DNA from: Patescibacteria group bacterium
GTDB taxonomy: Bacteria; Patescibacteriota; Microgenomatia; UBA1400; MFAQ01
Assembly: GCA_943355005.1 (NCBI GenBank)
Contig: CALRDV010000008.1
Coordinates: forward strand, 1 to 53,822
Direction of reading: 5' to 3'
DNA: 53,822 nt
The notes below the pieces were generated by a model. That model had not been told where the DNA came from, made no database searches, and saw only the letters and a program-made list of their open reading frames with translations. Positions 2,229 to 33,869 of the stretch are shown here, piece by piece. The stretch's first letter is position 1, and every line of letters starts with the position of its first letter. A program made the translations under genes and the position numbers.

Positions 2229-3605
2229 ATGAGAGTTGCGATAATTGGCGGTGGTATTACCGGACTAAGTTGCTCTGTATACTTGTCCGGTAAAGGGATA
2301 TCAACTGTTATTTTCGAATCTAAGAAGGAGGCAGGAGGACTGGCAAAGGGTTTTAATCCATCGGCAACAAAAAACTCAAATAAATGGAAGTGGAATCTAG
2401 AAATTTTTTATCATCACATTTTTACGAATGATAAAGAAATTATTGAGCTGGCGAAAACTGTAGGGGCAAAGATTCTGATTAATAAACCTGTCACGTCCAG
2501 CTGGCTTCATGGAAAAGAAATGCAGTTGGACTCGCCTCTTTCTCTTTTAAGATTTTCAGAGTTAAGCTTTTTTGCGCGATTACGGATGGGATTTGGACTA
2601 TTTGCTCTTAAAATGATTCCAAATGGTTTGTTTTTGGAAAAGTATAAAGCCACGGAAGTATTACCTGAGCTATTAGGGAAAGAGGGATACGATTTAGTTT
2701 GGAAGAAATTATTGACGGCTAAATTTGGACCATATGTAAACGAAGTTAATCTGGCTTGGTTCTGGAGCAGAGTGGCTAAGAGGACTAAAAATTTAGGTTA
2801 TTTTGAGGGAGGATTCGACAGACTGGTGGAAAAGATGGAGGTAGATATAAAGAAGAATGGTGGGGAGATACGGTTGGGGACTGAGGTTAAATCTTTGACG
2901 TTGCCTGGATTGCCACAGCTCGAGTACGAGATTCGCAATGACGAAAAAAGTAATGGAATGATAAGTAATAAGGTAGTAGTGAACGGGGAGGAGTTTGATG
3001 CTGTGGTGGTTACGACACCGGCGCCGATTGCGGAAAAATTACTGAAGGGATGGATTCCGGGTCAAGCCCGGAATGACGATGTGGGTATATTGGATACCAA
3101 GATTGGGAAGACGAAAATTAATTATTTGTGGGGGCAGACGCTAATACTGGAGCTTTCCAGAAAAATTCTTAATGGATACTGGCTAAATATCTTGGAGGAT
3201 AACTTCCCTTTCTTGGTAACAGTAGAACATACAAATATGATAGATAAAAAGATGTATGGGAACAACAGAATTGTTTATCTGGGAAATTATTTACCCGAAG
3301 GACACAAACAACTGTCGATGACAAAAGAAGAGCTGGTTAAGCTATACACTCCATTTATAAAAAAGATTAATGGACATTTTGATAAAAAACTTATTAAAAA
3401 TTCTTTTTTGTTCAGAGAACCTTTTGCTCAGCCGGTTTTCCCTGTAAACTATTCAAAGACGATTCCTAATATTAAGGTAAGTAATGGGGTTTACTTGGCT
3501 AATATGAGTATGGTCTATCCGTTTGACCGTGGAACAAATTACGCCGTTAAAATGGGTCGAGATGTAGCAAAGATGATTATTAGAGACATAAAGAAAAATG
3601 TTTAA
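2229..3605 (+). CDS. FAD-dependent amine oxidase/protoporphyrinogen oxidase-like protein
   Basis: The N-terminus carries a dinucleotide-binding fold (VAIIGGGITGLSCSVYL at residues 3-19, acidic residue in VIFES, then EAGG), typical of the NAD(P)/FAD-dependent oxidoreductases related to protoporphyrinogen oxidase and UDP-galactopyranose mutase. The C-terminus (YPFDRGTNYAV) fits the FAD-closing segment. Substrate is unknown; a role in surface sugar or lipid modification is only inferred from neighbours. Residues about 275-285 (GWIPGQARNDD) are encoded by a palindromic repeat at 3053-3077 inserted in frame, so the gene carries a mobile-repeat peptide. It overlaps the next gene by 8 nt. Confidence 0.8.
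   Translation: MRVAIIGGGITGLSCSVYLSGKGISTVIFESKKEAGGLAKGFNPSATKNSNKWKWNLEIFYHHIFTNDKEIIELAKTVGAKILINKPVTSSWLHGKEMQLDSPLSLLRFSELSFFARLRMGFGLFALKMIPNGLFLEKYKATEVLPELLGKEGYDLVWKKLLTAKFGPYVNEVNLAWFWSRVAKRTKNLGYFEGGFDRLVEKMEVDIKKNGGEIRLGTEVKSLTLPGLPQLEYEIRNDEKSNGMISNKVVVNGEEFDAVVVTTPAPIAEKLLKGWIPGQARNDDVGILDTKIGKTKINYLWGQTLILELSRKILNGYWLNILEDNFPFLVTVEHTNMIDKKMYGNNRIVYLGNYLPEGHKQLSMTKEELVKLYTPFIKKINGHFDKKLIKNSFLFREPFAQPVFPVNYSKTIPNIKVSNGVYLANMSMVYPFDRGTNYAVKMGRDVAKMIIRDIKKNV
3053..3077 (+). repeat. GATT...AATGAC palindromic repeat, type A, inside the FAD oxidoreductase gene
   Basis: A 25-bp element with the core CCGGGTCAAGCCCGG, flanked by GATT and AATGAC, matches copies at 5641, 9670, 34218, 36877 and 51460. 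It is read in frame as WIPGQARND. Confidence 0.9.
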
Positions 3606-23073: not shown

Positions 23074-26070
23074 ATGGCAGTAACAGCCGCTTTTGAAAGC
23101 GCTTATCAAAGATTAAATCCGACTCAGAAACAGGCCGTCGATAGTATCGAGGGGCCGGTGATGGTACTCGCTGGACCAGGAACAGGAAAGACACAGGTCC
23201 TGACCGTCCGCATCGCGAATATTCTTAAACAAACTGATGCAGACGCCTCATCGATCTTGGCTTTGACATTTACCGAAGCAGCAGCGAGAGAGATGAAAGA
23301 GAGACTGATAGATCTCACCGGTCAAGAGGGATACTTTGTAAAAATCGGCACGTTCCACGCACTGTGCAATGAAATTATCAGTGATAATCCGGAGAGATTT
23401 GCGAGACCGTCCGGTATGCAAAACGTAACCGAGCTGGAAAGAGTAAATATTATTTCGGATATCTTGGAGAAAAATTCTTTCCAATTATTAAAGCCGGTAA
23501 ATGCCCCTATGATGTATGTCCGGGACATTATCGGAAACATCTCGACTCTCAAGAGAGAAGGTATTACTCTGAAAAAATATGCCGAGCTGGTATCGATACT
23601 GAAAGATGAGTTTGAGATTGAAAAAGAAGAAATGACAAAGACGGCGCGAGGAGAAAGAGAGACTCTAGTGCTTAAGAATGTGGATCTGCTTTTTATCTAC
23701 GAAAAATATCAAGACAAGTTAAAAGAGATCGGCAGATTTGATTTCGAAGACATGATTAACTGGGTAGTGGAAGCCTTTGAAAATGACCCCGATTTTCTTC
23801 TCAAGTATCAGGAAAACTTCCAGTACATTCTGGTGGACGAGTATCAGGATACAAATTCGGCACAGAATAGATTGGTTTTCGCGCTGTCTAGTTTCTGGGG
23901 AGAGGAAGCAAATATTTTTGCCGTAGGAGACAGTAACCAATCAATTTACAGATTCCAAGGGGCCTCAAAAGAGAACTTGCTTGAGTTTGAAAAAAGATTC
24001 CCCCGCCACACCAGAGTGAAACTGACGGACAATTACCGCTCGACATCGACACTGCTAAAGTCTACGGCCGGACTTTTGAGTGAAGAAGAGCTGAAGCCAA
24101 ATGTGAAGTATAGAGATGTGCAGGTTAAGACAGCAAAGTTTAATTCCTCAATTCTGGAAGACGAGTTTATTTGTAAATCGATAAAACAAAAAATAAAAGC
24201 AGGAATCCCGGCGGAAGAGATTGCGGTGATTGTGAAAGAAAATAAAGATATTGATAACCTTATCAATCTTTTTAAACAAAAGAACATTCCATATCGTTTG
24301 GAGGGAGGGACCGATGTTCTAAAGACGCCTTTGGTATCACAGTTTCTAAAAATATTAAGGGTGGTGACACAGCTTTCCGGACCGGTAAATGACATCGAGC
24401 TCTTTACTGTTTTGAACTATCCGTATCTGGAAATCAAACCATTGTCAGTCCTGAGGGCTGCCAGATATGCTCACGAGAGAAGGGAAACTTTGGTAGATAC
24501 ACTGCAAGACGCCCATCCGGAAATTGACGGAAATTTAATCGAAAAATTTAATCTTATGGTGGGGTGGAATAGCAAAAGCGCATCTCATACTTTACCGGAA
24601 ATGTTCCAAATGATCTTCCAGGAATCGGGGCTACTGAATTATGTTTTGTCTTTACCTCAGCCCATCATTGAACTGAACCGATTTGGAACGCTGTATGAGG
24701 ACACAAAAGCACAAGCGGAGTCCATCTCCGGACTAGATTTGTTTGGCTATGTTTTTAATCTTGGAATAATGGAAGAAAATGGTTTGAAATTGCCGGAGCA
24801 AACGCTGGTATCAGATGTTAAAGCCGTGACACTGACGACAGCACATAAATCCAAAGGACTGGAATGGAAACTGGTATACATCTACCGCTTCGCGGATACA
24901 CACTGGGGTAATTCAACGCGACGGCAAATGATTAAGCTGCCACCAGGAATTATCAATGAGCAAGATGTGAGTAAAGAGGACAAGAACGCTGAAGAAAGAA
25001 GACTTTTTTATGTAGCCATGACACGGGCCAAGCAACAGCTATATATAGTAGGATCCACCAAGTACACCACATCGGTAAAAATGGCTTACCCGTCTTTATT
25101 CCTGAGCGACTTACCAAAAGATACGATCAAGAAAATAAAAACTTCTGGACTGGAAAAAAGAGCCGAGAAGATTCTAGCTTCTCTGATGCAGATCCCCGCT
25201 GCGCCTACCATCCATGAGGGAGAGGAAGAATACTTAGTTCAATTAATTAAAGATTTCAAACTGAGCCCGACAGCCTTAAACACTTTTCTCAAGTGCGCGT
25301 ACAAATTTAAGCTGGACAATCTTTACAAAATCCCAAGAGCGAAAGCACCGGCCATGTGCTTTGGGACTGCGGTGCACTTTGCCATGGAGAGACTTTACCT
25401 AGGGCTAAACAATGGCGAGAAGTTGGAATCGAGAGAAGATTTTCTGAGAGACTTCGAAGTGGCTCTAAAAAATGAGGTGCTAACCGAATCGGAATTCAAG
25501 GCGAGACGGGAACACGGGAAAGAAATTTTGGGAAAATATTACGATCACTATGAGAAGGAGTTTGGTCCGTGTCTGTTTACCGAGAAAAAGTTTGGCAATT
25601 CATTATCTTCGGCGGCGATGCTTGGAGACATTCCCCTTTCCGGAAAAGCAGATCGGATAGATGAAACAAACAAGGATGAGAAACACGTCAGATTTACAGA
25701 CTACAAAACGGGTAACCCTAAGAGCCGAAATGAGATTGAGGGAAACACCAAGAACTCGGATGGGGATTACAAAAGACAATTAGTTTTCTACACTCTACTG
25801 GCCGACTTGGACAAATCTTTCCAATACAAAGTAGTGCAAACAGTCTTGGACTTTATCGAGCCGGATAAAGGTGGAGTGTTTAAAAAAGAGCATTTTAATA
25901 TTACTAGTGATGAGGTGGCTGAATTAAAAGGACTAATTAAAAAATCGGTGTCCGAAATCAGGGAGCTAAAATTCGATAGAACCAAAAATTACACTACCTG
26001 TGGTAATTGTGAATTTATGGATCACTGCTGGCCAAACGGCGTGCCGGTGGCCACAAATTCTGAAGAATAG
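23074..26070 (+). CDS. UvrD/AddA-type helicase fused to a PD-(D/E)XK nuclease with Fe-S cysteines
   Basis: The 998 residues combine an SF1A helicase (Walker A GPGTGKT near 34-40, DEYQDTN near 254, TAHKSKGLEW near 589, RRLFYVAMTRAKQQL near 641) with a C-terminal RecB/AddB-type nuclease (FTDYKTGN near 873). One cysteine near 740 and a C-terminal C-x2-C-x5-C group near 976-985 fit the 4Fe-4S staple of AddB. This is the layout of a single-chain helicase-nuclease for double-strand break processing. No AddB or RecC partner gene is adjacent. It reads divergently from the DHH gene. Confidence 0.9.
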   Translation: MAVTAAFESAYQRLNPTQKQAVDSIEGPVMVLAGPGTGKTQVLTVRIANILKQTDADASSILALTFTEAAAREMKERLIDLTGQEGYFVKIGTFHALCNEIISDNPERFARPSGMQNVTELERVNIISDILEKNSFQLLKPVNAPMMYVRDIIGNISTLKREGITLKKYAELVSILKDEFEIEKEEMTKTARGERETLVLKNVDLLFIYEKYQDKLKEIGRFDFEDMINWVVEAFENDPDFLLKYQENFQYILVDEYQDTNSAQNRLVFALSSFWGEEANIFAVGDSNQSIYRFQGASKENLLEFEKRFPRHTRVKLTDNYRSTSTLLKSTAGLLSEEELKPNVKYRDVQVKTAKFNSSILEDEFICKSIKQKIKAGIPAEEIAVIVKENKDIDNLINLFKQKNIPYRLEGGTDVLKTPLVSQFLKILRVVTQLSGPVNDIELFTVLNYPYLEIKPLSVLRAARYAHERRETLVDTLQDAHPEIDGNLIEKFNLMVGWNSKSASHTLPEMFQMIFQESGLLNYVLSLPQPIIELNRFGTLYEDTKAQAESISGLDLFGYVFNLGIMEENGLKLPEQTLVSDVKAVTLTTAHKSKGLEWKLVYIYRFADTHWGNSTRRQMIKLPPGIINEQDVSKEDKNAEERRLFYVAMTRAKQQLYIVGSTKYTTSVKMAYPSLFLSDLPKDTIKKIKTSGLEKRAEKILASLMQIPAAPTIHEGEEEYLVQLIKDFKLSPTALNTFLKCAYKFKLDNLYKIPRAKAPAMCFGTAVHFAMERLYLGLNNGEKLESREDFLRDFEVALKNEVLTESEFKARREHGKEILGKYYDHYEKEFGPCLFTEKKFGNSLSSAAMLGDIPLSGKADRIDETNKDEKHVRFTDYKTGNPKSRNEIEGNTKNSDGDYKRQLVFYTLLADLDKSFQYKVVQTVLDFIEPDKGGVFKKEHFNITSDEVAELKGLIKKSVSEIRELKFDRTKNYTTCGNCEFMDHCWPNGVPVATNSEE

Positions 26071-26073
26071 TTT

Positions 26074-26079
26074 TATACT
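26074..26079 (+). promoter_or_regulatory. -10 box for the leaderless tspO gene
   Basis: TATACT lies 8 nt before the ATG at 26088, with no SD. Confidence 0.5.
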
Positions 26080-26087
26080 GGATATAT

Positions 26088-26558
26088 ATGAAAAGTTGGA
26101 TGAAGCTACTCATTTCGGTTATCGGCTGTGAGCTGGTGGGGGTTCTGTCTGCTCTCTTTACAATTTCAGGTATTAAAGATTGGTATTTATATCTAAACAA
26201 GCCTTTCTTTGCCCCACCAAACTGGATCTTCGGACCAGCATGGACGACTTTGTATTTTTTAATGGGAGTCGCAATTTACCTTATTTGGACACAAGACCAG
26301 AAAAAGAAAAAAGTGAAGATGGCAGTTCAATTTTTCTTGGCTCAGCTGGCGGTAAATTTTATTTGGTCACCAATTTTCTTTGGCCTGAGAGCCCCGGCAC
26401 TAGGGCTTGTCACAATTTTGGTCATGTGGGGTTTGGTTTTCATGACCATGAAAAAGTTTTACCCGATCTCTAAGCCGGCGTTTTATCTGCTGGTGCCTTA
26501 TATCGCCTGGGTCAGTTTTGCCACACTACTTAATGCGGCGATTGTGGTGCTAAATTGA
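26088..26558 (+). CDS. TspO/MBR family membrane protein
   Basis: Tryptophan-rich sensory protein, a five-helix membrane protein that binds porphyrins. The 156 residues show the family pattern: LNKPFFAPPNWIFGPAWTTLYFLMG, NFIWSPIFFGLRAP, and PYIAWVSFATLLNAAI at the end. Length matches TspO. In an organism with no visible haem genes in this window, its ligand is unclear. Confidence 0.93.
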   Translation: MKSWMKLLISVIGCELVGVLSALFTISGIKDWYLYLNKPFFAPPNWIFGPAWTTLYFLMGVAIYLIWTQDQKKKKVKMAVQFFLAQLAVNFIWSPIFFGLRAPALGLVTILVMWGLVFMTMKKFYPISKPAFYLLVPYIAWVSFATLLNAAIVVLN

Positions 26559-26560
26559 CC

Positions 26561-26590
26561 AAAAAAACACCCCACTACTTGAGTGGGGTG
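26561..26590 (-). terminator. terminator of the minus-strand gene at 26601
   Basis: CACCCCACT pairs with AGTGGGGTG around ACTTG; the A7 run at 26561-26567 is the U-tract on the minus strand. Confidence 0.85.
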
Positions 26591-26600
26591 AATTCGTCTG

Positions 26601-27005
26601 CTAATTTCTGAGGTCTTGGTATTTTTCGATCTCCCCCTGTGTCATCCAGAGCAAGGAGAATGAGCCATTTACCAGGAAGAAATTTATCGTCCTTTTTTCT
26701 ATTACTGTGATCCTGACGATATCTTCCAACGGCACTCCGTATTTGTGCCCACCATAGACTACGAAGAGTACTCCATCCTGAATGTAAGCAGTATCAGCTT
26801 CCGGACAGCCCTCACAGACTAATAGTCCATCGTCTTCCTCGCACTCAGCCTTGAGGTCTTCGAGGAATTCCGGGTTGGTCATTTCGTTCGGACCAATTAT
26901 GACCCGGCGGCCCAAGAACTGGGTGAAGCCCAGCGATAGGCGGGGGTCTTGGAGCTGGTGGTTTATGATTCTGACCAGCTTCTCGGGCATTGTCTTGTGG
27001 ACCAA
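26601..27005 (-). CDS. hypothetical protein, TTG start
   Basis: I place the start at TTG 27005 because AGGAGG lies 5 nt before it and the promoter (-10 at 27046-27051) lies upstream; a longer frame from 27074 would include the promoter. The 134 residues contain LVCEGCPEAD and strand-rich stretches (YIQDGVLFVVYGGHKYGV, FLVNGSFSLLWM). No family was recognised. It belongs to the SD-led accessory class with its own promoter and terminator. Confidence 0.7.
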   Translation of the reverse strand: MVHKTMPEKLVRIINHQLQDPRLSLGFTQFLGRRVIIGPNEMTNPEFLEDLKAECEEDDGLLVCEGCPEADTAYIQDGVLFVVYGGHKYGVPLEDIVRITVIEKRTINFFLVNGSFSLLWMTQGEIEKYQDLRN

Positions 27006-27045
27006 GATTGTCCTCCTTATAAATGTTCGGCACGAAGATAGCGAT

Positions 27046-27074
27046 ATATTACAATATACTTTAATAAATGTCAA
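27046..27074 (-). promoter_or_regulatory. promoter of the 26601-27005 gene
   Basis: On the minus strand, TTGACA (27069-27074), a 17-bp spacer and TAATAT (27046-27051). Confidence 0.8.
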
Positions 27075-27135
27075 ACTTATAGGCCTTACTTGGTTTCAAC
27101 TCTCTGTTAGATTGGTCAGCGATATAATTAAGATT

Positions 27136-27756
27136 ATGAAGCCATACGAGGGGATGACTAAAGACAACACGGCACTTCTAGTAATAGACCCGATAAACTC
27201 ATGTGCCCACGAGAGGTGTGAAACGCCGGAGTGGAATATCCACTACACCAAGATAAGGGAGATGCTGCCTAAGCTGGCTGATTTTGTAGTTGAGTACAAG
27301 AAGAACTTTGGCGGTTTAGTGGCATACGTAAAATTAACTTCCTGGACCAAGGAAAATTTGCCGAAAAATATTAAAACTCTCTACGAAGACCCAAAAGCAA
27401 ATTACTATTCCAACGACCCTTCCGGATTTGAAGAACTTTTTCATACAGTAAAGCCCAGTGAAGATGATTTGGTGTTTATAAAAAATACCTACGATGCGTT
27501 TTCGAATGAGGATTTGGTAAAAGAATTAAATCAGAGAAAAATTAGATACGTTGTGATGACCGGCATTTTTACGGATGGCTGTGTTCTCGCCACGATTGTT
27601 AGCGGATTTTCCAAAGGTTTCAATTTTGTGATTTTGAAAGATCTTATCGAGACAACCGACGACCCGGAAAGGCAGGAATTGCAAAAGCTTTTGATTGGTT
27701 TCACCTTCCCGGTGATGTATGGGAAGACGATTACTTCGGCGGAGTTTTTAGTATAA
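27136..27756 (+). CDS. isochorismatase-family cysteine hydrolase
   Basis: The start is ATG 27136, with TATAAT (27123-27128) 7 nt upstream; the frame stays open further 5', but that region holds the divergent promoter of the neighbour. The 206 residues have the Asp-Lys-Cys catalytic triad: LLVIDP near residue 16, FIKNTYDAF near 115, and GIFTDGCV near 150. The family includes nicotinamidases and other amidohydrolases. No partner gene indicates the substrate. Confidence 0.85.
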   Translation: MKPYEGMTKDNTALLVIDPINSCAHERCETPEWNIHYTKIREMLPKLADFVVEYKKNFGGLVAYVKLTSWTKENLPKNIKTLYEDPKANYYSNDPSGFEELFHTVKPSEDDLVFIKNTYDAFSNEDLVKELNQRKIRYVVMTGIFTDGCVLATIVSGFSKGFNFVILKDLIETTDDPERQELQKLLIGFTFPVMYGKTITSAEFLV

Positions 27757-27780
27757 AAAATCCCTAGGCTTTACTAGGGA
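27755..27780 (-). terminator. hairpin terminator between the isochorismatase-like and metallopeptidase-like genes
   Basis: TCCCTAG pairs with CTAGGGA; the A6 run at 27755-27760 gives a U-tract on the minus strand. It lies about 70 nt after the stop of the 27849 gene. Confidence 0.7.
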
Positions 27781-27848
27781 TCAGATTATAAGGCGCTTAC
27801 AGATGTGGTTGTATGATCTCAGGGTATCTTGGTCAAGCTATAAGTTAT

Positions 27849-28610
27849 TTAATCTAGAAACCCTTTGTCTTGCATTTCTCTCCTATGGACCTGTCTTTCT
27901 TTTAAATTTCTATCAACCCGAAAGGTAAGATTGGAATGCTTGAAATATTTTCTAAGAAAGGCGATTTGCCAGAGTCTTCCTTTTATCTCTAAATCAGAGG
28001 CTTTTAGAAGATAATCAAATTCGACCTCAGATAGGTTTTCGTATCGATCAGTATCACCAGTAAGATCTTTATATTCTGTTTGTTTTCTCCCCGGATTTTT
28101 ACTAGCTTCTTGAATATATAACATGTGGCCAAACTCATGGACGGGAGAGCTGAGGTATTGGGCGTCGCTTTCAAATAGTTTCTGATTTCTTAAATTTGAC
28201 TCCGCCTCATCGATCACAGCATCAAGGTTTAGTGTTAAATCAAAAGAAAGAAGCGTCTCCCCACTTTCGTTATATTTTGGAGTAACACTCATTTTTGAAC
28301 CGAAAGAGATATCATCTTCTTTAACATCGTGAATAAATTTGATGTTTACCGGATGTTCAAGTTTAATCGGAGATATTTTTCTCATCAGGTCAGTCATGAA
28401 CATAGCTTCACAGATAAGACGGGCGACCACAGGTTTCTCACGTTGACCAACTCTTGATAATCCTTTAACTTGCTCAGATGCTGCTTCCATATGATCTTTT
28501 AGGTATTCATCACGCATCCGGAAAAATTCAGGATTATCCGGCCAATCGATTTTTCGAGTGTTTTCGGTAGTTTTCTCAGTAGGCTCCAGTATTCCGAAAT
28601 TAATTTCCAT
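27849..28610 (-). CDS. HExxH metallopeptidase-like protein
   Basis: The 253 residues contain SPVHEFGHMLYI near residue 157, a zincin-type HExxH motif, preceded by strand-rich sequence and followed by a helical, charged C-terminus where a third zinc ligand (glutamate in LSEVEF) might lie. I do not recognise the family. It starts 2 nt after the stop of the 28613 gene on the same strand, so the two form a tight pair. No signal peptide is present, so it acts in the cytoplasm. Confidence 0.7.
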   Translation of the reverse strand: MEINFGILEPTEKTTENTRKIDWPDNPEFFRMRDEYLKDHMEAASEQVKGLSRVGQREKPVVARLICEAMFMTDLMRKISPIKLEHPVNIKFIHDVKEDDISFGSKMSVTPKYNESGETLLSFDLTLNLDAVIDEAESNLRNQKLFESDAQYLSSPVHEFGHMLYIQEASKNPGRKQTEYKDLTGDTDRYENLSEVEFDYLLKASDLEIKGRLWQIAFLRKYFKHSNLTFRVDRNLKERQVHRREMQDKGFLD

Positions 28611-28612
28611 AT

Positions 28613-29287
28613 TTATTTTTCGTAAACAGTTTTAATCCATGGATGGGACATAAAATAGCCGCATTTCCCAAGAGATTCCATACTAGCGACACGGTGGCGG
28701 CCGTTTTCGACTTTATCGAATTTGCCCTTTCGAATCGGATCGTTTTCAAAGATGCTTTCGTAAACAATTTCATTATCCATAACGATTCCCAGACCATAGA
28801 GATAAGTTTGGATATCTTCTCCTCTGCCTTTTAGATCATCAAATAGTACCCCGTTCTCTTCCTTTGCTTCTTCATAACCTTTTTGAAACTTATCAAATTT
28901 TGGATAGTATTTATCTTTAATTGGGGTTTCTTTAAGTGAGGTAATATAACCGGACAATTCGAGAAGCTTGTCTATATCACATTTTCCTTTTTTATCTAAT
29001 ATTCCGAGAGTGTGGAGTAAGGTACCGACCGCTTTTCTTTTCATATCCAGAATACCTGGCTCCCAAGAAGGACCTTTTTCTATAATGTCCGCCCAGAGTT
29101 GCATTAATTTATCGTATTTTTTAATTGTTTCTTTGGCTTCCAATTTTGGTTCTTCAGTTATGGATTCAAATTCGACTTCTTGTTCTACCTCATCGCTTTC
29201 TGCTTGATCTTCAGTCTTAGGAGCTTTCCATTCAGCAAAACCTTCACTGCCGCGGCCAAAAGAAGATTCGCAATACAAATATTCCAT
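28613..29287 (-). CDS. hypothetical protein with ParB-like NGRHRVAS motif
   Basis: The 224 residues have an acidic N-terminal region (residues about 25-50), a helical middle, and a C-terminal stretch ENGRHRVASMESLGKCGYF near 195. GRHR followed by A and a helix is the core of the ParB/sulfiredoxin fold (the G-x-H-R nucleotide-binding motif). Full ParB partition features such as an HTH are not visible. It is cotranscribed with the HExxH protein. A joint function is likely, but its nature is unknown. Confidence 0.6.
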   Translation of the reverse strand: MEYLYCESSFGRGSEGFAEWKAPKTEDQAESDEVEQEVEFESITEEPKLEAKETIKKYDKLMQLWADIIEKGPSWEPGILDMKRKAVGTLLHTLGILDKKGKCDIDKLLELSGYITSLKETPIKDKYYPKFDKFQKGYEEAKEENGVLFDDLKGRGEDIQTYLYGLGIVMDNEIVYESIFENDPIRKGKFDKVENGRHRVASMESLGKCGYFMSHPWIKTVYEK

Positions 29288-29335
29288 AGGTAGATTATAT
29301 GACTTCTATCTAAAGCTTTACGGAGTAACTTGATA

Positions 29336-29360
29336 CAAAAACTCCTCATTACTGAGGAGT
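29336..29360 (-). terminator. terminator overlapping the stop of the 29349 gene
   Basis: ACTCCTCA pairs with TGAGGAGT; the stop codon of the minus-strand gene lies in the loop and an A-rich run follows on the plus strand. Confidence 0.75.
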
Positions 29361-29657
29361 GGTAAACCAAGCGTCAAAAACGGAAACGTCTACTTTGTAC
29401 GAGTACTGGCTTTCTCGGTCGGCGGAATAGGACCGAGTAGTAGTCGACTTAATAGTCTCCGTGTGGAGCTTGTGGCCGGTGGCCCTATCGCTGAGCGTGA
29501 TCTTAATTTCGCCCCAGAATACCATGTGGTCCCACATATCAATGGTACGGCTATTTTCTTCACCGTGGATCTCAAGCTTCTGGCCGGCAGAAAGCTTGGA
29601 TTTTAGGTATTCTTCAAGCTTGCCAAGTACGAACCAGTCAATGCCTTCGATTATCAT
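29349..29657 (-). CDS. hypothetical 102-residue protein
   Basis: A small soluble, beta-rich protein (IKITLSD, RESQYSYKVDVSVFD) with no recognised family. It has an AGAGGAC SD 4 nt before the ATG, a consensus-like promoter and a terminator, so it is a self-contained unit of the SD-led class. Confidence 0.65.
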   Translation of the reverse strand: MIIEGIDWFVLGKLEEYLKSKLSAGQKLEIHGEENSRTIDMWDHMVFWGEIKITLSDRATGHKLHTETIKSTTTRSYSADRESQYSYKVDVSVFDAWFTTPQ

Positions 29658-29698
29658 TTTGTCCTCTTTAACGTGCGTGAGTTGATTAGATATTGTAT

Positions 29699-29727
29699 AC
29701 TATACACTATCTAAAGGGCTTTGTCAA
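29699..29727 (-). promoter_or_regulatory. promoter of the 29349-29657 gene
   Basis: On the minus strand, TTGACA (29722-29727), 17 bp and TATAGT (29699-29704). Confidence 0.85.
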
Positions 29728-29775
29728 GTCCTTCTTTTTTAAGCAAATTACGCATCAAATATCTGGATTTAGATA

Positions 29776-29781
29776 TAAAAT
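29776..29781 (+). promoter_or_regulatory. -10 box for the leaderless DUF2779 gene
   Basis: TAAAAT lies 7 nt before the ATG at 29789, with no SD. A start at 29693 would place this box inside the gene. Confidence 0.6.
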
Positions 29782-29788
29782 ACAGAGA

Positions 29789-31237
29789 ATGATTACGAAG
29801 TCGGATTTTATAAAACATGAGGAGTGCCCGATTTGGCTGTGGCTGGTAAAGTATCGGAAAGATTTGCTGCCGAAGCAGAGTGAAGCCCTAACGAGAATTT
29901 TTACCAACGGAAATTTGATAGATGAGCTGGCGAGGAAACTTTATCCGGAAGGGATAGAGATTGAGGACAGATTTGAGCGGGGATATATCAATACGAAGAG
30001 AATGATTGAAGAGGGAGCGACGGTAATGTTTCAGCCGACGGCGATTACGAATGACGGACTTGGTTGTACTGCAGATATCCTTACTAAAGACCTTAAGATG
30101 GGACTCTGGGACCTGCGGGAAGTGAAGAGTAGCACTTCAGTGAAAGAGGAACATCTTGTGGACGTGGCGTTTCAAAAAATTTGTTTTGAGAGAGCAGGAA
30201 TAAAGATCGGGAGAACATATCTGATACATATTAATAACGAATATGTGAGGCAAGGGGAGATAGAGCCGGAAAAACTTTTTGTAGAGGAGGAGATCACCGA
30301 GCAGGTGGCGGAGCATATGGATGAAGCTAGGAAGCAAATTGAAGAAGCGAAACTAATAATTGGGAATATCCGGTCACCAGACATGGCGCTGATACAGAAA
30401 TGTCATAATCCGGAAAAATGTGACTGGTTGGATTTCTATATTCATGGATTTCCCGAGATATATGAAATTGCGGAAACTTTTCCGGATGATCACCTGAAAA
30501 TATTACTGGACCGGGGGACGCTGGACTACACGAGGTTGCCCCAGCAACTGCTGGACCGGGTTGGTTTTGTGGAGCCGGTGGCTTTTGAAGAAATTGACAG
30601 AGAAGGAATTAAGAAAGAGTTGGCCGACCTGGTTTATCCTTTGTATTTTTTTGATTACGAAACATATTCGGCCGGGATTCCCCCATTTGACGGGACCAAG
30701 CCGTATCAGCAAATCCCCTTTCAGTATTCGCTGGATATCATGGACGAACCGGGTGGAGAAATAATTCACAAAGAATTTTTGGCTAGAAGCTTTGTGAATC
30801 CGATGGCGGAATTAATTGAAAATCTAAAGAAGGACTTCGGACCCAAGGGGAGTGTAGTTGTTTGGAATGCTAGTTTTGAAACTCTCCGAAATAAAGAAAT
30901 GGCAGAGATGTTTCCGGAGGAAGCGGAATTTCTTTTGGATTTGAACGAAAGGATGTTTGACTTGATGCTCTTGTTTAAATTTGATAGAAAAATATATATT
31001 CACAGTGAGTTTAACAAGAGCGCTTCTCTAAAGAAAGTTTTACCTGTGTTGTGTCCTGAATTAGCGTATACGGATTTGGAAATTCAAGAAGGTGGGACAG
31101 CGTCGGCCAGTTGGCCAGTGATGACGAATGAGGAAACACCGGAAGAAGAAAAAGGAAATCTGGCCAGGGCGATGCTCGCATATTGCGGAAGAGACACCAT
31201 GGCGATGGTGGGGATATTTAGGAAATGTATTTTTTGA
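29789..31237 (+). CDS. DUF2779 protein: Cas4-like nuclease domain plus exonuclease-like domain
   Basis: The start is ATG 29789; the 32 residues before it are unlike the family. The N-terminal half (TKSDFIKHEECPIWLWL, then LREVKSSTSVKEEHLVDVAFQK with the PD-(D/E)XK E-x-K) resembles Cas4/RecB nucleases, with cysteines that could hold an Fe-S cluster (KCHNPEKCDW). The C-terminal half has YFFDYETY, VVWNASFE and AYCGRDTMAMV, matching a DEDD 3'-5' exonuclease fold. This is the DUF2779 layout, presumed to act in DNA repair or defence. It overlaps the convergent SDR gene by 20 nt. Confidence 0.85.
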   Translation: MITKSDFIKHEECPIWLWLVKYRKDLLPKQSEALTRIFTNGNLIDELARKLYPEGIEIEDRFERGYINTKRMIEEGATVMFQPTAITNDGLGCTADILTKDLKMGLWDLREVKSSTSVKEEHLVDVAFQKICFERAGIKIGRTYLIHINNEYVRQGEIEPEKLFVEEEITEQVAEHMDEARKQIEEAKLIIGNIRSPDMALIQKCHNPEKCDWLDFYIHGFPEIYEIAETFPDDHLKILLDRGTLDYTRLPQQLLDRVGFVEPVAFEEIDREGIKKELADLVYPLYFFDYETYSAGIPPFDGTKPYQQIPFQYSLDIMDEPGGEIIHKEFLARSFVNPMAELIENLKKDFGPKGSVVVWNASFETLRNKEMAEMFPEEAEFLLDLNERMFDLMLLFKFDRKIYIHSEFNKSASLKKVLPVLCPELAYTDLEIQEGGTASASWPVMTNEETPEEEKGNLARAMLAYCGRDTMAMVGIFRKCIF

Positions 31238-31970
31238 TCAGGGGGTCGCGGATGGTGGACGGCAAAGCCATAAGTAGTTTGACCAGATGTTTTTCCTTTC
31301 CCACTAAATAATTGGCTTTGGGATTTTTGGTTTCGATGATTTTTTCGATAAGCTTCGCAATTTGAACAGGTGGTTCACCATAGTCTTTGTAGTCGTTAAC
31401 GACCGTGGGCGGAACTTTAGAATTTTTGTAAAATTTGGTATCGTAAGCACCGGGGTTGACGGCGACGACTTGGATATTATTTTTGATTTCTTCCAAGCGA
31501 AGGGCTTGAGAAAGACCTTCGACGGCAAACTTACTGGCGCTATAAATACCGTAATCAGGAAGAGAGAAGAGTCCGACAATCGAACTGATATTAATAATCA
31601 GTCCGGATTTTTGAGTCCTCATTATTGGAAGATTCGATTTGATGACTTTGTAGGTGCCGAAAAAATTAACTTCAAACTGGTCTCTGGTCTGGCTTTCGGT
31701 AGAGGCTTCGACAGAAGCGACATAGCCGTAGCCGGCATTGTTTATAAGTACGTCGATTCGGCCATATTTTTTATAAATTTCTTTTACAACTTCATCAATT
31801 TGATTTTGACTCCAAGTTACATCCAGAAGTTTGGTGTTTGGGAGTATGGAAAGATCTGATTTTTTGCGGACAGTGGGAATGACAGTGTGACCTTGTTGGG
31901 ATAAATATTTGGCGGTTTCGTAACCAAAACCTGAGGAACAGCCGGTGATGAGAATGGTTTTCTTTTTCAT
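31218..31970 (-). CDS. short-chain dehydrogenase/reductase
   Basis: Classical SDR features: TGCSSGFG at residues 9-16 for NAD(P) binding, NNAGYGYV, ISSIVG, and the catalytic YSASK near residue 153. VAVNPGAYDTKF follows. At 250 residues it is of normal length. The substrate is not predictable. It lies 4 nt after the histidine phosphatase gene on the same strand, so both are probably one operon. Confidence 0.93.
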   Translation of the reverse strand: MKKKTILITGCSSGFGYETAKYLSQQGHTVIPTVRKKSDLSILPNTKLLDVTWSQNQIDEVVKEIYKKYGRIDVLINNAGYGYVASVEASTESQTRDQFEVNFFGTYKVIKSNLPIMRTQKSGLIINISSIVGLFSLPDYGIYSASKFAVEGLSQALRLEEIKNNIQVVAVNPGAYDTKFYKNSKVPPTVVNDYKDYGEPPVQIAKLIEKIIETKNPKANYLVGKEKHLVKLLMALPSTIRDPLIKKYIS

Positions 31971-31974
31971 AATT

Positions 31975-32559
31975 CTATCTAACTATTTTTATACCACTTA
32001 AAGAAACAAGACTTAATTTACCATCCGTGTAGTTTAGTTCGGCAAAGCCGCAGTCTTCGACTTTTACCTCTCCCTCTTTTAGTACTTCTCTGAAAATATA
32101 TTTAATAGGACCACTGCCGTGAGTAATAATTGCGACGGATTGAAAATTTGACCCAAAGATCTTTTCCAGTGATTTTCCGAACCTCTCACTGAAATCAGTG
32201 TAGCTTTCAGCACCGGTAATAGTGTTTCTGTAATCCTTAAGAAGTTCGACTTCTTTGGGGTATTTTTCTTTGGCTTCCGATTTGACCATCCCTGTTAAAA
32301 TGCCGTATTGATTTCTTTCTCTCAAATCTTCAAAGGTTTCTGTGGATACCGACAGCTTTTGATTTATTATTTCGGCGGTTTCTTGAGCTCGAATGAGAGG
32401 GCTGGCAAAGATTTTTTCGATACCTTTATTGATAAGTTTTTCCGCCAAATCTGTGGCTTGGGTACGACCCACTTCGGTCAAATGATCATCGTAGTCACCA
32501 CCGTAACGATCTTCGAGATCCCCGGTAGTCTGGCCATGGCGAATGAGAAATATTTTCAT
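31975..32559 (-). CDS. histidine phosphatase (phosphoglycerate mutase-like) family protein
   Basis: The catalytic RHG is at residues 7-9 (LIRHGQTTGD), with ASPLIRAQETAE, and the second histidine in VAIITHGSG. At 194 residues it resembles cofactor-dependent phosphoglycerate mutase GpmB or an alpha-ribazole phosphatase; one cannot choose from sequence alone. It might serve in lower glycolysis with tpiA, gap and pgk. A TAGAAT box (32566-32571, minus) lies 6 nt before the ATG. Confidence 0.85.
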   Translation of the reverse strand: MKIFLIRHGQTTGDLEDRYGGDYDDHLTEVGRTQATDLAEKLINKGIEKIFASPLIRAQETAEIINQKLSVSTETFEDLRERNQYGILTGMVKSEAKEKYPKEVELLKDYRNTITGAESYTDFSERFGKSLEKIFGSNFQSVAIITHGSGPIKYIFREVLKEGEVKVEDCGFAELNYTDGKLSLVSLSGIKIVR

Positions 32560-32651
32560 AGATATATTCTATAGTTTTGCTAGGGAGAATATAAGAGAGA
32601 TTGGAGTAAAATATGACTTAGAACTTTGACTGATCCTAAGAAGGAGAAAAA

Positions 32652-32834
32652 ATGTATTTAATAGGATTTACTCTTGGTGGTGTTTTGCTTGGTTTGGTAA
32701 TGGGAGGAGTAGCTGTTTCATTTGTCGTATGGCTCGGAATGACTGAGATGGCGGCAATGGTGGTAGGCGCAGCTGTCTGGTGTTTAGTTTCAATCATCGG
32801 ACTTGGAGTTGGATGTATATTGCAGTTTAAATAA
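32652..32834 (+). CDS. 60-residue small membrane protein
   Basis: Two hydrophobic segments (about residues 3-28 and 33-56) rich in Gly, Val and Met, with almost no charged residues. The SD AAGGAG lies 6 nt upstream and a strong terminator follows. Function unknown. Confidence 0.6.
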   Translation: MYLIGFTLGGVLLGLVMGGVAVSFVVWLGMTEMAAMVVGAAVWCLVSIIGLGVGCILQFK

Positions 32835-32841
32835 CATAGAG

Positions 32842-32865
32842 TCCCGCTGATGGCGGGATTTTTTT
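32842..32865 (+). terminator. terminator after the 60-residue membrane protein gene
   Basis: TCCCGC-TGATG-GCGGGA followed by seven T and GTGG. Confidence 0.9.
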
Positions 32866-32885
32866 GTGGACATAAGGAGGTTAAA

Positions 32886-33869
32886 TTAATCTAATTCTGT
32901 GGAGTCGAGACCGGATTTGAGCTGACGGGCAGAATCGAGCTTGTTGCCGATTTGGTTCATAGTTTGAGAAGTGGAGTTCATGGAGTTGTAGGCATTAGTG
33001 AGATGTTTGCCCAGAAGAGTAAAGTTTTCATTAAGTTTTTCGTAATCTTTTTGGACAGCTCTGAGGATGGTAAAAACTTCGGAGGTTTTGCCGGCGATTT
33101 TTTGACCTTCCAGAGAAAGAAGAATGGTTTGGAGATGGGCGTAGAGAGTAGTGGGCGACACGGGATAGACGCGGCACTCGCGGGCAAGGTCTAGTAATTC
33201 TTGTTCACTAACTATTTCGTAATAAATACTTTCCGAAGGAATGTACATGAGAGCAAAGTCCAGAGTTCCCTCTTCGGGCAGAATATATTTGCCCGAAATG
33301 TCTTTGATGTGTTTCTTGACGTCTCGAATAAAAGCGGTGCGGGCAATCGACTTCTCTGAAGCGGTAGCAGAAGAGTAAATTTTCTGAAAATTTTCCATGG
33401 GAAATTTGGAATCTATGGGAAGGATGCCAGCTTGAGTCTTGATGGCGGCGTCGACGATGGAGCCACCTTTGAAGTGATACTGAAGATGAAAACTGTTTTT
33501 GGGGAACATTTGTCCAATGAGGTCTTTGAGAACTTGTTCGCCGATGTTGCCGCGAAGCTTGGGAGACTTAAGATAGTCTTGAAGATCTTTCATGGAGCGA
33601 CTAACTTCACCGAAGGCTCCCGCTTCTTTCTTCAAGTCCGAAATAACGGCTGTGGCTTGGTCGAGACGGGAGAAAAGTTCGCGGTAGTTCTGCTGGAGAG
33701 AGGAGGTGGTGTTGCGATTGGTGGTATCGAAGGACTGCTGGAGTGATTTGAGCCAGGCATTCAGGGTGGGGTCGGTTTTCTGGGCTTCCAGCTTCTGTTT
33801 GAGCAGGAGATAGACCACAAAAAGCCCGATGGCCAGGAAGGCAAGAATAATGAGCGTGTCTGAGGACAT
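32886..33869 (-). CDS. rmuC: RmuC-family DNA recombination protein
   Basis: The protein has an N-terminal membrane segment (about 5-24), a coiled coil, then the RmuC nuclease-like domain: LRGNIGEQVLKDLIGQMFP, DAAIKTQAGILPIDSKFPMENF (the conserved D...D-S-K-F-P block) and LDFALMYIPSESIYYEI, with TPTTLYAHLQ-like SPTTLYAHLQTI. RmuC proteins limit DNA inversions and are related to PD-(D/E)XK nucleases. Length 327 is slightly short. A TAGAAT box (33876-33881, minus) lies 6 nt before the ATG without an SD. Confidence 0.92.
   Translation of the reverse strand: MSSDTLIILAFLAIGLFVVYLLLKQKLEAQKTDPTLNAWLKSLQQSFDTTNRNTTSSLQQNYRELFSRLDQATAVISDLKKEAGAFGEVSRSMKDLQDYLKSPKLRGNIGEQVLKDLIGQMFPKNSFHLQYHFKGGSIVDAAIKTQAGILPIDSKFPMENFQKIYSSATASEKSIARTAFIRDVKKHIKDISGKYILPEEGTLDFALMYIPSESIYYEIVSEQELLDLARECRVYPVSPTTLYAHLQTILLSLEGQKIAGKTSEVFTILRAVQKDYEKLNENFTLLGKHLTNAYNSMNSTSQTMNQIGNKLDSARQLKSGLDSTELD

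Follow-up and report, generated by a model that had tools for sequence, protein, structure and literature searches.

The two genes considered here lie next to each other on the reverse strand of the window, which is the whole 53,822-nt stretch of DNA that was analysed. The first, PB (nt 28613–29287), encodes 224 aa with the sequence NGRHR close to its C-terminus (residues 195–199; nt 28691–28705), and the second, MP (nt 27849–28610), encodes 253 aa that include SPVHEFGHMLY, in which HEFGH occupies residues 158–162 (nt 28125–28139). Both motifs are on the reverse strand; their positions were derived from the residue numbers and agree with the sequence. The PB–MP junction reads GAA AAA TAA AT ATG GAA, a gap of 2 nt. 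Codon usage prefers the annotated frame in PB (0.37 bits per codon) and in MP (0.24), with other frames at 0.08 or less, and the coding statistics of the two genes resemble those of other genes of the window. An earlier note on this DNA had described two unrecognised genes 2 nt apart, and this description proved accurate: both ORFs are present at the coordinates given, both motifs are in place, and neither protein matches a known family.

The layout is that of a short transcript. Terminator-like hairpins on the same strand, both of them consensus matches only, stand directly 5' of the pair, between PB and a 102-aa ORF upstream (nt 29341–29360), and, with a T tail, 3' of MP (nt 27759–27782), which makes a two-gene transcript likely, and PB and MP are probably co-transcribed as one unit. 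A TATAAT sequence, read by eye and without a good -35 box, ends 6 bases 5' of the PB start codon; a stringent promoter and terminator scan did not report it. PB and MP have the same GC3 (0.32), compared with 0.59 in the 102-aa ORF, and this common low value suggests a shared history. Together with the transcript-like layout it fits a functional link between the two genes in the host lineage.

Neither PB nor MP has a meaningful match in Pfam, NCBIfam, PADLOC or PHROGs, or any match among PDB sequences or in phage, plasmid or viral-contig collections, and scanning genome and viral collections for peptide patterns, an approach that reaches close relatives only, recovered no relatives of either. 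A PDB profile match to DnaJC5 (E = 0.4) was judged to be due to chance. The PB family is missing from the curated libraries searched; five further genomes of the phylum encode homologues at about 20–33% identity. The nearest homologue, in G011, belongs to the same taxonomic family as the host (E = 2.7e-12, 33% identical) and is the only one in 88 genomes of the order. Profile searches added homologues in G529, of the same class (E = 4e-10), G407 (E = 4.9e-15), G850 (E = 1.4e-32) and G877 (E = 2.8e-20). PB was not found in any of the eight other genomes of the genus, and samples of 374–380 genomes each gave one to three true positives, the host genome counted, so that the distribution within the phylum is sporadic and patchy. 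In an alignment of six rows, R155, Y176, GRHR, L206 and W217 are invariant (6/6), and GRHR arises in shuffled PB protein in only 8e-5 of trials. These homologues and the invariant motif show that PB represents a real protein family of which GRHR, whose conservation the earlier note had proposed as a check, is the hallmark. A small family with one invariant motif is well suited to a clear mutational test.

Several weaker matches to PB were set aside. A match in G332 falls within a sufB-like gene, and profile matches with E values of 0.01–0.05 are mostly frames of about 650–720 aa, of which the one that was opened (L051) is uvrB and the others look alike. The G877 representatives are two fragments on a single 3.2-kb contig (L068:1-408 and 2869-3192), which look like a pair of paralogues truncated at either end of it.

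The earlier note had placed PB in the ParB/sulfiredoxin (Srx) fold. Compared with PF02195 and the orphan ParB-like proteins, in whose ParB-CTPase fold the P motif is GxxR and among which Box III is often missing (PMC12704722), PB has GRHR as the equivalent of the P motif, and its predicted order of strand, GRHR, helix ending in LG, and strand resembles Box II. It differs in lacking a significant profile match and a recognisable Box I, in its extra helical N-terminal region, and in having histidine at the third place of the motif, as in the Srx and serine-kinase types. In an hhalign comparison the GRHR of PB was placed over GERR of a chromosomal ParB, with the preceding strand and the following helix in register. 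The P of 0.085 is not significant, and among 150 templates with shuffled columns at least 8 scored higher; when ParB was compared with a ParB-methylase fusion as a positive control, P was 1.4e-4. The Pfam ParB models matched no PB member. Structure prediction followed by fold search, which the earlier note had recommended for both proteins, yielded AlphaFold models too low in confidence to be of use: the mean pLDDT was 49 for PB, whose C-terminal domain lay mostly under 50, and 44 for the single-sequence model of MP. PDB fold searches with the two models found nothing. A ParB/Srx fold for PB is plausible on the invariance of GRHR and its register with ParB; the profile similarity does not reach significance. 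Separately, a ParB-domain protein that runs on into a DNA-methyltransferase-like region is encoded in the host genome and in G014 (L086, L085).

Among the 87 open stretches of 100 aa or more that the window contains, HExxH occurs once, as the HEFGH of MP; shuffled MP protein contains HExxH in 1.6% of trials, and in 0.16% when PROSITE-like hydrophobic positions are demanded. A proline at position -2 relative to the first His puts MP outside the PROSITE zinc-protease pattern in its strict form. No recognisable homologue of MP was found in 54 relatives, 380 genomes of the phylum and 36 more, sets that overlap and amount to about 450 genomes in all, G850 and G877 lying outside this genome-wide search. 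Weak matches (E = 0.001–0.1) were inspected and rejected, the best (L004) corresponding to rpsU-like and YqeY-like frames without HExxH. The similarity to ImmA-type regulators suggested in the earlier note extends to the HExxH motif only: Pfam and NCBIfam models detected no relatedness to ImmA/IrrE proteins, and no repressor partner was seen. Zincin metallopeptidases (MPTases) show the order helix, strands, HExxH helix, helix (PMC5512222), and the low-confidence model of MP would place HEFGH in a helix after a first helix and three strands, with a later helix that bears Glu; E208 in YLLKASDLEIKGR is a possible third zinc ligand. MP departs from zincins in its lack of a family match and of homologues and in the proline at -2, and the model on which the likeness is based is of low confidence.

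It is possible, though somewhat less likely than the explanation preferred below, that GRHR and HEFGH mark neither a ParB fold nor an active peptidase. PB would then keep its basic motif within an unrelated fold, and MP would be a fast-evolving, non-catalytic orphan. The missing library matches of both proteins, the non-significant profile comparison of PB with ParB, the proline before the HExxH of MP and the orphan status of MP are all consistent with this explanation. It is harder to reconcile with a motif that is invariant among PB members of only 20–33% identity and in register with the P motif of ParB, or with the zincin-like order of elements predicted for MP.

Whether PB and MP form a conserved pair can be judged from the other PB loci. 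G011 shows rmuC, PB and uvrD in direct succession, with a gap of 13 nt after PB and no MP. No plausible HExxH partner is present near the PB homologues of G011, G529, G407, G850 and G877, although partner absence is limited evidence in G877 (the contig being 3.2 kb) and in G850, where PB lies about 1.5 kb from a contig end. The scan of these loci turned up one HExxH, the HEREH of an unrelated protein of 525 aa encoded some 6 kb away from PB in G407. PADLOC found no clear defence system among PB neighbours in other genomes. Since other members of the PB family are without an MP-like partner, PB–MP is probably not a conserved system. The sensor/effector or toxin-protease pair envisaged in the earlier note is not supported as a conserved unit, with no plausible HExxH partner seen at the five other PB loci and no MP homologue in the genomes searched. 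Adjacency in homologues, a test which that note had set beforehand, goes against the pair, whereas conservation of GRHR, part of the same test, holds.

A split relic of a polyvalent protein from a mobile element is a very unlikely origin for PB–MP. Such proteins often combine a ParB-like domain with a zincin MPTase domain; the DdrB-like ParB domain and the MPTase domain serve as hubs in them and are found together in DdrB of phage P1 (PMC5512222). The same two kinds of domain are suspected side by side here. PB and MP are, however, separate short genes; the homologues of PB stand alone as genes of comparable length, elsewhere without an MPTase, phage, plasmid and viral-contig collections gave no match to either protein, and no phage genes or other mobile-element context were noticed nearby.

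The pair lies in a variable interval (nt 26071–32885) between uvrD (nt 23074–26070) and rmuC (nt 32886–33869), which in the window holds genes for TspO, isochorismatase, MP, PB, a DUF2779 protein, an SDR protein and a histidine phosphatase; PB occupies this interval both here and in its nearest homologue (G011). The rmuC gene is present in 15 of 16 genomes of the host's taxonomic family. In six of these (G002, G005, G006, G009, G014 and G015) the slot is near-empty, with about 20–65 nt left between the alignments of rmuC and uvrD, and in G001 and G013 it holds small ORFs only. Defence-type cargo occurs in four: G007 and G008 carry DNA methyltransferases with partners matching PADLOC REase_II (type II restriction-modification), G004 has RhuM (PADLOC PDC-S05) and other genes, including the TspO gene that is common to it and the window, and in G003 SoFic adjoins rmuC on the same side, uvrD being outside the fetched stretch. 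In G012 no uvrD was found within the 4.8 kb fetched beyond rmuC. The interval is a variable slot, often with defence cargo, as judged from counts of genomes.

A link of the pair to defence islands, raised in the earlier note, has indirect support only, from the slot as it is in relatives. Restriction-modification, SoFic and RhuM genes fill it there; the slot genes tested in the window gave no match to a PADLOC system. A weak match, Cas4-like and N-terminal (PADLOC E = 2.5e-5), is confined to the DUF2779 protein (nt 29693–31237), which also matches the UU173 family below the cut-off and is a possible nuclease. A defence-related accessory role for PB and MP is possible. That PB senses a nucleotide and controls the MP protease, the two genes making up a true system of the sensor/effector, toxin-protease or anti-phage type, is unlikely: the 2-nt gap, common GC3, flanking hairpins and defence genes in the slots of relatives speak for it, and the absence of MP from five other PB loci, of MP homologues from all genomes searched, and of a recognised defence system among the tested slot genes of the window speaks against it. 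The least probable proposal is that the two proteins defend against phages as a nucleotide-sensing protease pair of an undescribed kind, one alternative cargo of the slot, with PB working with other effectors elsewhere. Were MP and PB to cooperate, they would represent a new kind of protease switch; the present data are against a conserved pair.

The explanation preferred here, tentatively, is the most economical one, in which both genes are accessory and occupy a cargo slot. PB would be an accessory protein of a small, patchy and new family of the phylum, most likely helical in its N-terminal region and with a ParB/Srx-like module at the C-terminus, built on GRHR, that may bind nucleotide phosphate, and would act without a fixed partner. 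MP would be a lineage-specific gene, probably for a zincin-type metallopeptidase, that forms the downstream gene of the short PB transcript in the host genome. Both would be cargo of the slot between rmuC and uvrD, which looks like a defence-prone insertion site in a lineage of very small genomes and could be mined for further unknown defence genes.

Some minor features of these loci may be added. In G003 a different HExxH protein of 135 aa (IIHEILHLATYD; L039:55-462) lies beside SoFic and rmuC. The uvrD of G007 (L038:12385-16473) is a frame of 1362 aa that is broken in-frame after GDNNQ by an intein-like segment starting CLPGDTKIN, and G011 carries a homing-endonuclease-like ORF (L014:7200-7922; PADLOC HEase, E = 1.5e-4).
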